A stretch of DNA of 64,000 bases from Eubacterium sp. (GTDB taxonomy: Bacteria; Bacillota; Clostridia; Oscillospirales; Acutalibacteraceae). This document shows, in pieces, positions 57,977 through 62,913 of the stretch. Below the pieces are notes generated by a model that saw nothing but the letters and a program-made list of their open reading frames with translations, was not told the origin of the DNA and ran no database searches. The number at the start of each line of letters is the position of its first letter. Positions within the stretch are counted from its first letter, which is position 1. The position numbers were made by a program, and so were the translations under genes. Location of the stretch: NCBI GenBank assembly GCA_022511205.1, contig JAFLRY010000001.1, forward strand, positions 62,001 through 126,000. The letters are read 5' to 3'.

Positions 57977-59077
57977 TTATTTACTATTTAATAAGATGCT
58001 GTTGCCGATCAAATCTTTCATTTGATTTACTGATGAACTGAAAAATTTCTTATAAACTCCGCAAAACTCATTTTCACCTCTGCCGCGTTTACAACCGCAT
58101 CCTCTGCAAAGGGCGAAATAATCGCAACGCTTGCATTTATCTTCTATTGCGAAGCTTTCCTCAATAAAGCATTTTGCCTTTTTTTCACCATGCATCTGCA
58201 AAAAGGACTTTTCGTTAATATTACCAAGCTCCCATTCGTCCGTACAATAGAAATCGCAGGGATACACCGTGCCGTCTCCCTCAACCACGAACTGAACGGA
58301 GCAAAAGCCGTTCATTCCGCATTGCTCGGCATTCCTGCCCTGAAGCAATAAAAGATAATTATCAAAGGAGCGAACGGAAACTCTGTTGCCTCTCATGTTA
58401 TCGTTGTAATAGAGCCTGAACGCCTTTTCAAGGAACTGCGCGTAATCTTCTTCGTTCATATAGATATCGGCGTTATATTCGCCGTCAAAGGGCTTCAGAC
58501 AGTTTATGTACTGGATATCGACAATTCCGTTTTGCTTTAAAAAACGGTAATTATCCCGAACGGTCTCGGCAAGCTTTTTCGTTACGACTGAAAGTACGTT
58601 GAATTCCACGCCGTGCTTTTGCAGAAGCTTGACGCCGTTCATTACGTCATCAAAGGAAGTTTTTCCGTTTGGATAAACTCTGTATGAATTCTGTTCCTCG
58701 TTACCGTCCAGCGAAACGCCGATCAGAAAATTATTTCTTTTGAAAAACGCGCACCACTCGTCATTTATAAGCGTTGCATTGGTCTGCAAGCAATAAATCA
58801 CCTGAGAATTATACGAATTGTAATTATTCACCAATTCAACGAAGTTCTTGAAAAAATCAAGCCCCGAGAGCATCGGTTCTCCGCCCTGAAAGGTGAAGAT
58901 CATCCTCGTTCCCTTAGTGAACTCAACTGCTGATTTTATAATATTCTCAGCGGTTTCAAGACTCATAAAGCCTTTGAAATAATCGCTTCTACCCTCGGAA
59001 AGCGAAGAATAAAAGCAGTATTCACATTTCAAATTGCACGCCGAGGACGATGGCTTTATCATTACCGAAATTGGCAT
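57977..59077 (-). CDS. Anaerobic sulfatase-maturase-like radical SAM protein
   Basis: A 366-residue radical SAM enzyme with CNLKCEYC (Cys 14, 18, 21) for the SAM-binding cluster, then FTFQGGEPML, and a C-terminal SPASM-type set of cysteines (CSVQF...CDFYC...CKRCDYFALCRGCGC) for extra [4Fe-4S] clusters. It resembles anaerobic sulfatase-maturating enzymes that make formylglycine. No sulfatase gene is in this window, so the substrate is open. An AGGTGGAGC precedes the ATG. Confidence 0.85.
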   Translation of the reverse strand: MPISVMIKPSSSACNLKCEYCFYSSLSEGRSDYFKGFMSLETAENIIKSAVEFTKGTRMIFTFQGGEPMLSGLDFFKNFVELVNNYNSYNSQVIYCLQTNATLINDEWCAFFKRNNFLIGVSLDGNEEQNSYRVYPNGKTSFDDVMNGVKLLQKHGVEFNVLSVVTKKLAETVRDNYRFLKQNGIVDIQYINCLKPFDGEYNADIYMNEEDYAQFLEKAFRLYYNDNMRGNRVSVRSFDNYLLLLQGRNAEQCGMNGFCSVQFVVEGDGTVYPCDFYCTDEWELGNINEKSFLQMHGEKKAKCFIEESFAIEDKCKRCDYFALCRGCGCKRGRGENEFCGVYKKFFSSSVNQMKDLIGNSILLNSK

Positions 59078-59085
59078 TGCTCCAC

Positions 59086-59424
59086 CTAAAAGTTCATATT
59101 ATTCCAGCCCCATTGTGATGAGCCGTTGTATTTCACGTAAATCTTATCGGCAGGAATTGCAAGCTCTTCGCCGAAGATCTTGCAAACTTCAACTGTCATT
59201 TTCTCGCACTGAGCATCGGTGGACTTGCCGAAAACTGAGATATCCACGAAAGCCATAGGCACGCTTTCACCCCTGAAATACATAGAGCATTTATCCTCAA
59301 AGCTTATCATCAGCCAGCCCTCGCTTTTCCCGAGAAGCTCAATAGCCTTTCCGAGTCTACTCTTAAGCGCCAGTTCTTTCTCCTTGCTGATCTCAACGTT
59401 TGTATTGGTGTTGATAAACGGCAT
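59086..59424 (-). CDS. MIF-like tautomerase
   Basis: A 112-residue protein with MPFINTNTN at the N-terminus; Pro2 would be the catalytic base after Met removal. Segments KLYVKYNG-like (DKIYVKYNGSSQWGW) and FVDISVFG fit macrophage migration inhibitory factor/phenylpyruvate tautomerase. The gene is 8 bases upstream of the radical SAM gene. Its role in this operon is not known. Confidence 0.85.
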   Translation of the reverse strand: MPFINTNTNVEISKEKELALKSRLGKAIELLGKSEGWLMISFEDKCSMYFRGESVPMAFVDISVFGKSTDAQCEKMTVEVCKIFGEELAIPADKIYVKYNGSSQWGWNNMNF

Positions 59425-59483: not shown

Positions 59484-59517
59484 CAAAAACAAAGGCAGAC
59501 AAATATTGTCTGCCTTT
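59484..59517 (-). terminator. Intrinsic terminator after porB
   Basis: Minus strand AAAGGCAGAC pairs with GTCTGCCTTT, then GTTTTTG. Confidence 0.9.
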
Positions 59518-59552
59518 ACCTCTTCACTTTTCACTATTACTTATTACTTCAA

Positions 59553-60494
59553 TTATGCGCCCATAACACGGTCGCAGCGCTTGGTGAGTTCATCCCAGCG
59601 GCGGTCTACTTCCTTCTGGAAGGCTTCGATCATCCACTCGTTTTCGGGCTTGAACATATGCTTGAATCTGCCCTGCTTGATGAGCCATTCCTCGATGGGA
59701 ACGTATCTCTTTGGCTCGTAGTTGAGCACCCAAACGCCGTCTATAACCTCAAAAAGAGGCCAGTAGCGCGTTTCAACGGCAAGCTTGCATATCTCCATAA
59801 TATCCCAGGTGTTGTATCTCCAGCCGCGGGGGCAAGGAGCCATAATGTTGAGGAACGCCGCGCCCTTGGTGTAAATCGCCTTTTCGGACTTCACGTGAAG
59901 ATCGCGGAAATTCTGAACGAAGGTGGTCTGCGCAACGTAAGGAACCTTATGCTCCGCAATGATAGCGGATAAATCCTTTCTGTACTGGGTTTTACCGCCC
60001 GATACAGAGCCGACGGGGGTTGTGGTGGTATCGGCAAACATTGGAGTTGCCGAGGAACGCTGGATTCCCGTGTTCATATACGCGCCGTTATCATAGCAAA
60101 CGTAAACCATATCGTGTCCGCGCTCCATAGCGCCTGAAAGAGACTGGAAGCCGATATCGTAAGTACCGCCGTCTCCGCCGAAGGTGATGAACTTAAAGGT
60201 ATCGTTCACCTTGCCCTTGCGCTTCAAAGCGTTGTAAGCACCCTCAACACCGCTGAGGGTAGCGCCGGCGTTTTCAAAGGCGTTGTGGATATAGCTATCC
60301 TTATAAGCGGTGTAAGGATACATAAATGAGGAAACCTCAAGGCAACCCGTGGCGTTGCCAATAACCGCCTTATCACCCGGCTTGATTGCCTTAAGAACGT
60401 TTCTTACGGCGATCGTTCCGCCGCAGCCCGCGCACATTCTGTGTCCGCCCGCAAGGCGCTCTTCCCTGCCGATAAACTCTTTAAAATTATACAT
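59553..60494 (-). CDS. porB: 2-oxoacid:ferredoxin oxidoreductase beta subunit
   Basis: A 313-residue ThDP-binding subunit. It has GHRMCAGCGG near the N-terminus for cluster ligation, the GDGGTYDIGFQSLSGAMERGH ThDP region (about residues 105-125) and the YMNTGIQRSS active-site segment. It closely resembles pyruvate synthase PorB, though keto-isovalerate enzymes (Vor) share this architecture. An AAGGAGG Shine-Dalgarno precedes the ATG. It is the last gene of the T-box-controlled porG-D-A-B operon. Confidence 0.9.
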   Translation of the reverse strand: MYNFKEFIGREERLAGGHRMCAGCGGTIAVRNVLKAIKPGDKAVIGNATGCLEVSSFMYPYTAYKDSYIHNAFENAGATLSGVEGAYNALKRKGKVNDTFKFITFGGDGGTYDIGFQSLSGAMERGHDMVYVCYDNGAYMNTGIQRSSATPMFADTTTTPVGSVSGGKTQYRKDLSAIIAEHKVPYVAQTTFVQNFRDLHVKSEKAIYTKGAAFLNIMAPCPRGWRYNTWDIMEICKLAVETRYWPLFEVIDGVWVLNYEPKRYVPIEEWLIKQGRFKHMFKPENEWMIEAFQKEVDRRWDELTKRCDRVMGA

Positions 60495-60508: not shown

Positions 60509-61687
60509 TTATTCTCTTACGCCCATATAGCGGTAGGCTTCTCCAACCTCGCCGCTTTCAGCGATTTTCTCAAGCTCATTATAAATTCCGATCATATCTT
60601 TCACTCTTACGTCACGACCGCCGAGACCATAAACGTAGTTCACCGCAAGGCAATCGGACTTCGCTCTGTAAAGCGCCGTGGTGACCTCCGCGCCGATCGG
60701 TCCGCAGTTGTCGTTATAGCTTTCTGTTCTGTCCATAAGCGCAACGGATTTTACGCCTTTAAGCGCTTCCGCGATCTCGCTTGCGGGGAACGGACGGAAC
60801 AGACGGATCTTGATTAAACCAACCTTTTTGCCCTGCTCTCTCAACTCGTCAACGGCATCCTTAGTGGTGCCTGCCGCCGAGCCGATAATAACTACCGCAA
60901 GCTCCGCGTCGTCCATTTTATATTCTTCAAACAAGCCGTATTCTCTGCCGCTGATCTGCTTGTATTCATTCGCAACGTCAACGGTTACCTGCTTGGCGTT
61001 TTTAAGCGCCTCAGCCTGCGCCCTCTTAGCTTCAAAATAATAGTTTGAAACGCTGTAAGGACCTACCGCCATAGGACATTCGGAATTAAGAAGATAATTC
61101 TCAGGCTCGTATTCGCCTACGAAATCCCTGACCTCTTTATCCTCAAGAAGCTCGATATTCTCAACGGCGTGGGAAGTGATAAAACCGTCCTGGCAGATCA
61201 TAACGGGAAGCATAACGTCCTTATGCTCGGCGATTCTGTATGCCATAACGAGGTTATCGTATACCTCCTGATTGTTTTCAGCGTAAATCTGGATCCAGCC
61301 CGCGTCTCTTGCGCCCATGGAATCGCTGTGGTCGCAGTTTATATTTATTGGGCCTGAAAGCGCTCTGTTTACGAGGGTGAGTACGCAAGGAAGTCTGTTG
61401 GAAGCCGCAAGATAAAGCTCCTCCCACATAAGCGCCATACCTGCCGACGAGGTTGCCGTTACGGAGCGGGCGCCCGCGGACTGAGCGCCGATTACCGCAG
61501 ACATTGCGGAGTGCTCTGACTCAACGGGAATGAATTCGGAATCAACCTGCCCGTTGGCTACGAGCTTTGAAAAATACTGGGGAATTTCGGTGGACGGAGT
61601 GATCGGGAACGCCGCCATAACGTCCGGATTGATCTGGCGAAGCGCTTCCGCTACTGCTTCGTTACCGCTTAATCGGTCTTTTCTCAT
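60509..61687 (-). CDS. porA: 2-oxoacid:ferredoxin oxidoreductase alpha subunit
   Basis: A 392-residue subunit with the N-terminal KDRLSGNEAVAEALRQINP, FPITPSTEIPQYFSK, SSAGMALMWEELY and GYN-like SSIT-type segments, matching PorA. It binds CoA and contributes to the pyruvate site. A GGGGG Shine-Dalgarno lies upstream. Preference for pyruvate over branched 2-oxoacids cannot be set from the motifs I can see. Confidence 0.9.
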   Translation of the reverse strand: MRKDRLSGNEAVAEALRQINPDVMAAFPITPSTEIPQYFSKLVANGQVDSEFIPVESEHSAMSAVIGAQSAGARSVTATSSAGMALMWEELYLAASNRLPCVLTLVNRALSGPININCDHSDSMGARDAGWIQIYAENNQEVYDNLVMAYRIAEHKDVMLPVMICQDGFITSHAVENIELLEDKEVRDFVGEYEPENYLLNSECPMAVGPYSVSNYYFEAKRAQAEALKNAKQVTVDVANEYKQISGREYGLFEEYKMDDAELAVVIIGSAAGTTKDAVDELREQGKKVGLIKIRLFRPFPASEIAEALKGVKSVALMDRTESYNDNCGPIGAEVTTALYRAKSDCLAVNYVYGLGGRDVRVKDMIGIYNELEKIAESGEVGEAYRYMGVRE

Positions 61688-61689
61688 TG

Positions 61690-61992
61690 TTACTTAACCC
61701 CCTTCATCGTGATAGCGCCGGTGTGGCACGCCTTAACGCAGATGCCGCAGCCCTTGCAATGATCGTAGTCAAATTCTCCGCGCTTGCCGTCTACAACGGG
61801 AATAACGCTGTCCGGGCAAACGGGAACGCACAAAAGGCAGTGGATGCAAAGCTCCTCTTTAAGCTCGGGCTTAACGGAGGTCCACTCGCCTGTGTTGAAT
61901 TCAAGGGAGGTCATTTCGCCGTAGATCTGCATACCCTCCGTCAGATCCTGCCATTTGCAGTTCTGATCCAGCTTTTTGATATCTGATTTCAT
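61690..61992 (-). CDS. porD: 2-oxoacid:ferredoxin oxidoreductase delta subunit (2[4Fe-4S])
   Basis: A 100-residue ferredoxin-like subunit with two CxxCxxCxxxC clusters: CIHCLLCVPVCP and CKGCGICVKACH. It transfers electrons from the alpha-beta core to external ferredoxin. A GGAGGAG Shine-Dalgarno precedes the ATG. Confidence 0.92.
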   Translation of the reverse strand: MKSDIKKLDQNCKWQDLTEGMQIYGEMTSLEFNTGEWTSVKPELKEELCIHCLLCVPVCPDSVIPVVDGKRGEFDYDHCKGCGICVKACHTGAITMKGVK

Positions 61993-62006: not shown

Positions 62007-62579
62007 CTATTTCACTTCGTTATGCGCCATTTTAAGGGCGTTCATATTGCCCTCGATAACCTCGGGCTTAGAAGAAAACTTGTGTTTGAAGGAAGCTTCC
62101 ATTTCGGTGAGGAAGCTATCCCACTCCATTACCTCGGAAATCTTAACGATACCCGCAAGCATGGGGGTGTTCGGGAAATACTTGCCGAGGCAGGCAACGG
62201 ATACCTTGCGAGCATCGATCGTATAAACCTTGCCCGTATATCCGTTTAAATGCTTCTCAATTTCCTCTTTCGGCTTGGCCGTGTTGATAAGTATAGCGCC
62301 GTCGGGGTTAAGTCCCTCGGTAACGTTGATGGCGTCCAGCAGGCTTTCATCAACGACTACTACGAAATCCGGCTCGTAAATATTAGAATGAACGCGTATC
62401 TCGTTGGGGCTTATTCGGTTATATGCCGTAATGGGCGCGCCCATACGCTCGGGACCGTATTCGGGGAAGCCCTGAACGTATCTGCCCGTTTTAAAGGCAA
62501 CGTCTGCAAGAAGCAGCGCGGCGGTCTTAGCGCCCTGACCTCCTCTGCCGTGCCAGCGGATCTCAACACAATTCTTCAT
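62007..62579 (-). CDS. porG: 2-oxoacid:ferredoxin oxidoreductase gamma subunit
   Basis: A 190-residue subunit starting MKNCVEIRWHGRGGQGAKTAA, the diagnostic gamma N-terminus, with FPEYGPERMGAPI and TPMLAGIVK segments. The ATG at 62579 has an AAGGAG at 8 bases; the TTG two codons upstream is less likely. It is the first gene after the T-box leader. Confidence 0.92.
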   Translation of the reverse strand: MKNCVEIRWHGRGGQGAKTAALLLADVAFKTGRYVQGFPEYGPERMGAPITAYNRISPNEIRVHSNIYEPDFVVVVDESLLDAINVTEGLNPDGAILINTAKPKEEIEKHLNGYTGKVYTIDARKVSVACLGKYFPNTPMLAGIVKISEVMEWDSFLTEMEASFKHKFSSKPEVIEGNMNALKMAHNEVK

Positions 62580-62613
62580 AGTCAAAACTCCTTATGTAAT
62601 AAGACTTTCTAAA

Positions 62614-62648
62614 CAAAAAACGCCTCTCTGCCAAAAGGCAAAGAGGCG
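62614..62648 (-). terminator. T-box terminator
   Basis: Minus strand CGCCTCTTTGCC pairs with GGCAGAGAGGCG (one mismatch), followed by TTTTTTG, 35 bases before the porG start codon. It is mutually exclusive with the antiterminator that includes the T-box sequence. Confidence 0.92.
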
Positions 62649-62878
62649 ATATAAAATACCGTGGTACCACTCTTATTCGTCCTAAAAGACGCACTTACGC
62701 GAACTGACATTCGCTGCCGCTTTAACGGAGGCCGCCGTCCGCGCTTACTGAAATTTCGGCGCAGCCACTCGGGGATGATATTACAGCTTCTTTTTTACTG
62801 CCTTCCAGCAAACGGCAGCTCTCTGTGAAAAAAGTTGAGACCGATTTTTGTTCCCGTCACCGTGTTTGATTTATTATT
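62615..62878 (-). promoter_or_regulatory. T-box leader RNA upstream of porGDAB
   Basis: The leader runs about 260 nt from the promoter to the terminator. It contains AGAGAG followed by a CUGCC/GGCAG distal hairpin with GCUGGAA in the loop (stem I), a UAAUAUCA internal-loop side that I take as the specifier region, CCCCGAGUGG after it, and the T-box core AAGAGUGGUACCACGG at 62659-62674. The leading specifier candidate is AUC (Ile) at 62777-62779, followed by the expected purine; GCU upstream is an alternative. It would raise expression when the cognate tRNA is uncharged. Confidence 0.88.
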
Positions 62879-62884
62879 GGATAG

Positions 62885-62913
62885 ATTATAATACAGGAAA
62901 TTACGTTTGTCAA
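62885..62913 (-). promoter_or_regulatory. Consensus promoter of the T-box-por operon
   Basis: Minus strand TTGACA, 17-base spacer and TATAAT, both perfect. Predicted transcription start near 62878. Confidence 0.88.

Follow-up and report, generated by a model that had tools for sequence, protein, structure and literature searches.

An isoleucine-reading T-box leader precedes a porGDAB 2-oxoacid:ferredoxin oxidoreductase operon in Clostridia and suggests a role in isoleucine supply

T-box leaders allow expression of the genes behind them when the cognate tRNA is uncharged, as established for the family, and those that read isoleucine are found ahead of ileS, genes of branched-chain biosynthesis and transporters. 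Annotation usually treats pyruvate:ferredoxin oxidoreductases (PORs) as catabolic enzymes of pyruvate. 2-Oxobutyrate synthase (EC 1.2.7.2) carboxylates propionyl-CoA. The locus described here shares features with each of these systems. It has the full-length, transcriptional architecture of an isoleucine-type T-box riboswitch (RF00230), with an AUC specifier, a T-box core and a terminator, but the gene regulated is a 2-oxoacid:ferredoxin oxidoreductase. The enzyme has the same four subunits and domains as the PorGDAB pyruvate:ferredoxin oxidoreductase/pyruvate synthase; unlike that enzyme, it falls under the equivalog cut-offs, has an isoleucine T-box in front and shares its genome with a one-chain PFOR. 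The 2-ketoisovalerate:ferredoxin oxidoreductase (VOR) belongs to the same superfamily, but PorA and PorB score lower on it than on the pyruvate type, with alpha far below the cut-off. A 2-oxobutyrate synthase would yield the isoleucine-specific precursor in anaerobes, and a ferredoxin-dependent activity is described in PMC7476758; PorGDAB, in contrast, is a candidate from its genes, and ilvA is also present.

By term counts, the words ferredoxin and oxidoreductase are absent from the main text of a survey of T-box-regulated genes (PMC2494555). A search of the open literature, including passages of that survey, PMC7778990 (TBDB), PMC3766115 and PMC2700814, showed no T-box before a por operon; a bare table entry in TBDB or RegPrecise may exist. 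What appears to be new is the T-box-por pairing, its conservation and its bearing on the role of the enzyme, while the T-box and the POR are themselves of plainly known kinds.

The leader and its elements occupy the following positions in the window, the 64-kb stretch of DNA that we analyzed:

62885..62913, minus strand: sigma-70-type promoter TTGACA-17-TATAAT, matching the consensus at 12 of 12 positions
62639..62869, minus strand: T-box leader RNA (RF00230), from stem I to antiterminator, identified by cmscan and by covariation in 32 leaders
62820..62824, minus strand: AGAGA motif of stem I, the same in all 32 aligned leaders
62777..62779, minus strand: specifier codon AUC (Ile), from the Rfam alignment; ATC in 49 of 50 leaders
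62659..62674, minus strand: T-box core AAGAGUGGUACCACGG with the UGGU bulge, from the Rfam alignment and the leader alignment
62621..62648, minus strand: intrinsic terminator, its 5' strand shared with the antiterminator, from a terminator scan and folding

A sequence-only reading of this DNA had proposed a consensus promoter, a T-box with its core and stem I elements, and a strong terminator ahead of a por operon, and all of these were recovered. The T-box scored 115.2 bits against a gathering threshold of 93 (E = 9.1e-25), covered model positions 1-219, which is the full model, and was the sole gathering-level Rfam match within the window (cmscan). The promoter ends 15 bases upstream of the leader. 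Scanning the window gave five promoter-like sites against 4.0 expected from shuffling; because this count is near the shuffled expectation, only the perfect match of the promoter carries weight. The terminator that precedes porG consists of 12 pairs followed by TTTTTT (-23.6 kcal/mol, z = -8.0), in a window where the terminator scan found four terminator-like sites against 4.5 expected. The antiterminator pairs of the RF00230 model use the 5' strand of this terminator, so that the two folds compete. When the antiterminator was folded on its own, 111 of 200 shuffles folded at least as well, and the RNAalifold consensus displayed the terminator and not the antiterminator. Such weakness of the isolated element is usual where the tRNA must stabilize it. 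As judged from these elements, this is a T-box of the transcriptional type, read by tRNA-Ile, with tRNA binding and read-through as predicted properties.

The specifier columns of the Rfam alignment read AUC (62779 to 62777). The assignment to isoleucine, which had been conditional in the earlier reading, is thus the one that the alignment gives, and isoleucine derives from a 2-oxoacid. Two of the outcomes that the earlier reading had named as refuting it, a covariance search with no T-box score and a specifier unrelated to amino acids derived from 2-oxoacids, therefore did not occur. Eight T-boxes were detected in the genome. As a control on the reading, we read the same specifier columns in the other seven and identified the genes downstream. 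GUA precedes valS, UUC precedes pheST, UGC precedes cysE-cysS, CCC precedes proS and ACC precedes thrS; UGG (Trp) precedes trpE and the trp operon, and CUC (Leu), read after a shift of two bases that allows for an insertion, precedes leuA. All seven specifiers (Val, Phe, Cys, Leu, Pro, Trp and Thr) fit their downstream genes. These genes score over NCBIfam equivalog cut-offs except for valS, a fragment of 285 residues lying at the end of a contig, whose best match is valS and which is below the cut-off only by length. The biosynthesis genes that carry T-boxes in this genome encode amino-acid-specific steps (leuA, trpE and cysE), and none of the eight T-boxes precedes ilvA, ilvBN or ilvC. Because the por leader is the only one of the eight that reads isoleucine and the other seven fit their genes, por appears to be wired as an isoleucine-supply gene. 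This suggests that porGDAB is regulated as such a gene, from which we infer that it belongs to the isoleucine pathway. The other 48 genomes examined, with T-box-por or related loci, contain 4 to 10 T-boxes each.

We then examined the pairing of T-box and por across genomes. From a PorA scan that returned 572 loci, the best 80 were taken; 49 of these have a T-box, 25 lack one and 6 could not be judged. The same T-box thus stands before por in many related genomes, which, together with the isoleucine specifier, supports the earlier proposal that the oxidoreductase is regulated as an amino-acid-synthesis gene. The core AG-GUGG-ACC-CG was present upstream of porG in 47 of the 80 loci. Adding the window genome and two further relatives gave 50 leaders with this core, or 48 distinct ones after two duplicates were set aside. 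Of these 50, 49 have ATC as their specifier, the remaining leader (L121) being cut by a contig end, and ATC was invariant in an alignment of 32 of the leaders. In the same alignment, 35 of 54 predicted pairs had at least one two-sided change that kept the pair (RNAalifold). Two Lachnospiraceae-labelled loci, L133 (99.4 bits) and L134 (113.4 bits), carry the core GGUGGUAACGCG, and their specifier is again AUC (cmscan). In these T-boxes (L133:6737-7047 and L134:6570-6853), GGUGGUAACGCG replaces GUGGUACC, and motif searches for the usual core miss both; they were recovered by a looser motif search and cmscan.

On a PorG tree of 105 rows, the T-box label needs three changes, compared with a mean of 35.3 after shuffling, and none of 500 shuffles was as low. 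The T-box rows are confined to one PorG group of 55, in which 52 carry the T-box and L135, L059 and L083 do not. Fork support was 84/81 for the whole group and 99/95 for the main group of 52. With these values, the L133/L134 line may have gained its T-box independently; one gain and two losses is the most parsimonious account. Records in the main group are labelled mostly Clostridia, Eubacterium, Oscillospiraceae or Ruminococcaceae, with one Bacteroides (L090).

The nearest relative of the por operon in the window, L083/L059, has lost the T-box and kept por. In the 600 bases upstream of its porG, the 3' half of the terminator is retained and the T-box is replaced by other DNA, which makes it a natural loss-of-control variant. 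This loss, together with an antiterminator that alone folds no better than shuffles and a consensus fold that gives the terminator, is what one would see if the T-box had arisen by chance or were in decay and did not control por. The covarying stems and invariant specifier over 32 leaders, and the retention of the T-box in 52 of the 55 rows of its PorG group, make that explanation very improbable.

Among wider relatives, searches for a T-box ahead of por were negative in seven family loci with distant PorG (L024-L030; cmscan, E up to 0.001), in L059 and 19 order-level loci (cmscan, gathering level, with L077 and L082 searched by motif only) and in 29 class-level loci (cmscan, gathering level), some of these negative loci having little upstream sequence. 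The 29 came from 71 genomes of the class that gave a match, the window genome among them. Of the 25 negatives among the 80 loci, 19 were checked by cmscan and six (L140, L141, L149, L159, L161 and L162) by motif only. L154 has a T-box, which sits elsewhere on the opposite strand and not before por. The PorG homologue of L209 (G745) was reported with one in-frame TGA.

Downstream of the leader, the operon in the window is arranged as follows:

62007..62579, minus strand: porG, gamma subunit (TIGR02175, 212.5 bits, cut-off 81.1; PF01558)
61690..61992, minus strand: porD, delta subunit with a 4Fe-4S dicluster ferredoxin domain (TIGR02179, 88.2 bits, cut-off 60.05)
60509..61687, minus strand: porA, alpha subunit (PF01855, PF17147; PorA_Arch, 489.5 bits, cut-off 550)
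59553..60494, minus strand: porB, beta subunit, thiamine diphosphate binding (PF02775; PRK11865, 334.4 bits, cut-off 405)
59486..59522, minus strand: terminator-like hairpin behind porB, probably closing the operon (-18.1 kcal/mol, z = -5.7)

The four genes follow the leader in the order porG-porD-porA-porB, all on the minus strand, and, as had been noted from the sequence, no synthetase, transporter or other gene intervenes. For porG, ATG at 62579 is the start best spaced behind AGGAG, compared with TTG at 62585 in the ORF list. Because a hairpin with a U-rich tail lies behind porB, the operon probably ends there; this hairpin came from folding and is absent from the terminator-scan list. Just after the operon, the window encodes a small MIF-family protein (59086-59424, minus strand; PF01187, 40 bits), whose cluster occurs in 12 of the 80 loci, and an adjoining radical SAM/SPASM protein (57977-59077, minus strand), whose cluster occurs in 11 of the 80.

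The operon encodes alpha, beta, gamma and delta subunits with the expected domains (Pfam and NCBIfam), and gamma and delta exceed the PorC_KorC and PorD_KorD subfamily cut-offs. The substrate class of PorA and PorB was judged from profile scores. PorA scored 489.5 on the pyruvate synthase model (cut-off 550) and 345.2 on the 2-ketoisovalerate alpha model (cut-off 646), while PorB scored 334.4 on the pyruvate synthase model (cut-off 405) and 285.2 on the 2-ketoisovalerate beta model (cut-off 405). Neither protein, therefore, reached the NCBIfam equivalog level for pyruvate synthase or for the 2-ketoisovalerate enzyme. The closest solved structure is the pyruvate:ferredoxin oxidoreductase 9bt4 (phmmer; alpha, E = 8.2e-93; beta, E = 1.7e-73).

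We also compared the loop that follows a conserved Arg in PorA and that, on the basis of PFOR structures, we place at the wall of the substrate site. The loop NRALSGPININCDH was present in 51 of 51 main-group rows (including L083, L110 and L131) and in 26 of 29 other rows. At the residues N-C of this loop, further relatives have N or H at one or both positions, and 9bt4 has W-N. Because the loop is alike in most close T-box-free relatives, nothing there speaks for re-specialization. Four PorA and six PorB positions set the main group apart from the rest, none of them in the examined loop; in this comparison the rest included the T-box-bearing L133 and L134 and the unjudgeable L131, and the main group included the unjudgeable L110. 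On sequence alone, then, PorA gives no sign of a changed substrate.

The window genome encodes a threonine deaminase, IlvA (TIGR01127, 471.5 bits, cut-off 378.75), and also has ilvB, ilvN, ilvC, leuA, leuB and leuC; of ilvD there is only the start, at a contig end. The survey took in 49 distinct genomes: that of L083 and 48 in which the T-box stands before por. IlvA scored over the cut-off in 47 (all except G527 and G533), and ilvC was present in 45 (all except G504, G511, G520 and G527, which may be incomplete metagenome-assembled genomes). Since these genes are so widespread, threonine can supply 2-oxobutyrate and a por route would be dispensable. Two other accounts of por could be rejected from the same survey: it is not a substitute for a missing ilvA, which is over the cut-off in the window genome and in the 47, and, with ilvC in 45 of 49, restriction to genomes without ilvC does not hold as a rule. 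On contig C74 of the window genome (L053:1240-2709), a 489-aa frame resembles LeuA, CimA and homocitrate synthase but is under every NCBIfam cut-off; it is followed by a GntR-like regulator (assigned by eye) and the start of ilvD. Citramalate synthase or Re-citrate synthase would be guesses at its identity. Among the 40 largest gene clusters around por, named by eye, none besides porGDAB was common to more than 28 of the 80 loci, so that no partner enzyme is linked to the operon. A search of the window genome for PF13607, a domain of ADP-forming acyl-CoA synthetases, gave no match.

The earlier reading had considered that a second, unregulated por operon, combined with firm clustering of this one among strictly catabolic pyruvate enzymes, would count against it. 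The window genome does contain a second POR-type enzyme, a one-chain PFOR on contig C61 (TIGR02176, 1503 bits, cut-off 911.35), and no T-box was detected on that contig, which holds about 250 bases before the gene. A POR frame of at least 750 aa was found in 43 of the 49 genomes, the exceptions being G528 (a fragment only) and G501, G504, G520, G524 and G538 (none listed). Given a separate PFOR in the window genome and a long POR frame in most of the others, pyruvate oxidation need not rest on porGDAB. Judged by gene content, these bacteria possess the usual genes for isoleucine and in most cases a PFOR of their own besides, which makes PorGDAB an additional enzyme behind a predicted isoleucine switch.

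These results bear on whether PorGDAB is an ordinary pyruvate synthase or oxidase, with the isoleucine T-box doing no more than linking it to a general signal of starvation, or to pyruvate and ferredoxin supply for branched-chain synthesis. Its top profiles are pyruvate synthases, its best solved match is 9bt4, its loop is unchanged in most close T-box-free relatives and the canonical isoleucine genes are present. However, pyruvate is not specific to isoleucine, yet AUC stands in every readable leader; neither pyruvate-synthase cut-off is reached, and the one-chain PFOR and the long POR frames described above offer another enzyme for pyruvate. We consider this explanation unlikely. An anabolic role in isoleucine supply is, as a whole, the probable function of PorGDAB from the genomic evidence. 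The synthetic direction is the natural reading, because a cell would have little reason to turn on the breakdown of isoleucine carbon while tRNA-Ile is uncharged.

The reactions that would serve isoleucine alone are the conversion of propionyl-CoA to 2-oxobutyrate and that of 2-methylbutyryl-CoA to 3-methyl-2-oxopentanoate, the two substrates named in the sequence-only reading. Under the second, the same switch would control a PorGDAB that carboxylates scavenged 2-methylbutyryl-CoA to 3-methyl-2-oxopentanoate, which would be transaminated directly to isoleucine; isobutyryl- and isovaleryl-CoA would perhaps also be substrates. Branched short-chain acids occur in the gut and rumen, and gut or rumen sources are named for many of the 80 loci. 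The isoleucine specifier fits this route, and the title of Monticello 1984 gives isoleucine from alpha-methylbutyrate in C. sporogenes. Nevertheless, PorA and PorB are both nearer to the pyruvate synthase than to the 2-ketoisovalerate models, the carbon skeleton can be made with the ilvB, ilvN, ilvC and leuC present in the genome, and most close relatives without the T-box have an identical loop. We therefore regard 2-methylbutyryl-CoA as a doubtful main substrate and place it second, although the earlier reading had named it first. The profile closeness to pyruvate synthase favors the smaller substrate, and we favor propionyl-CoA, the part of that proposal that fits better.

In the explanation that we prefer, scarcity of isoleucine would leave tRNA-Ile uncharged, and this tRNA would pair both with the specifier AUC and with the UGGU bulge. 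Formation of the antiterminator would then allow transcription of porGDAB, whereas with charged tRNA-Ile the terminator would halt transcription. The four-subunit 2-oxoacid:ferredoxin oxidoreductase would run in the carboxylating direction, converting propionyl-CoA, CO2 and reduced ferredoxin to 2-oxobutyrate. This isoleucine-specific precursor would enter the IlvBN-IlvC-IlvD pathway, providing a second entry beside threonine deaminase. We place about even confidence in this combination of an isoleucine T-box with propionyl-CoA carboxylation by PorGDAB, in which tRNA binding, read-through, direction and substrate are all predicted. Counting against it are the widespread ilvA and ilvC, the unchanged substrate loop, the lack of a linked partner enzyme, and the absence of the T-box from L135 and from the closest relative, L083/L059, where por is kept. 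Isoleucine is reportedly made from propionate or alpha-methylbutyrate in C. sporogenes (Monticello 1984). PMC7476758 describes ferredoxin-dependent carboxylation of propionyl-CoA to 2-ketobutyrate for anaerobes and cautions that in some of them 2-ketobutyrate may arise from propionate through formate-lyase. GapMind includes isoleucine from propionate (PMC7311316), and both papers cite Monticello 1984.

Collectively, these data give roughly equal chances for and against the clade's PorGDAB being a dedicated isoleucine enzyme, controlled by tRNA-Ile, that would add CO2 to propionyl-CoA and/or 2-methylbutyryl-CoA from the surroundings. A conserved tRNA-Ile switch before a POR is regulatory evidence for service in amino-acid synthesis. 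The pairing was found in a group of mostly uncultured Clostridia. If the explanation is true, it would point to genes that may serve the ferredoxin-dependent incorporation of propionate (or 2-methylbutyrate) into isoleucine, and would put genes to an activity that was reported for anaerobes decades ago. A T-box would then have indicated what an enzyme does where the sequence of that enzyme leaves the substrate hidden. It would also mark gut bacteria that build isoleucine from the short-chain acids of their neighbors and correct pathway predictions for many uncultured Clostridia.
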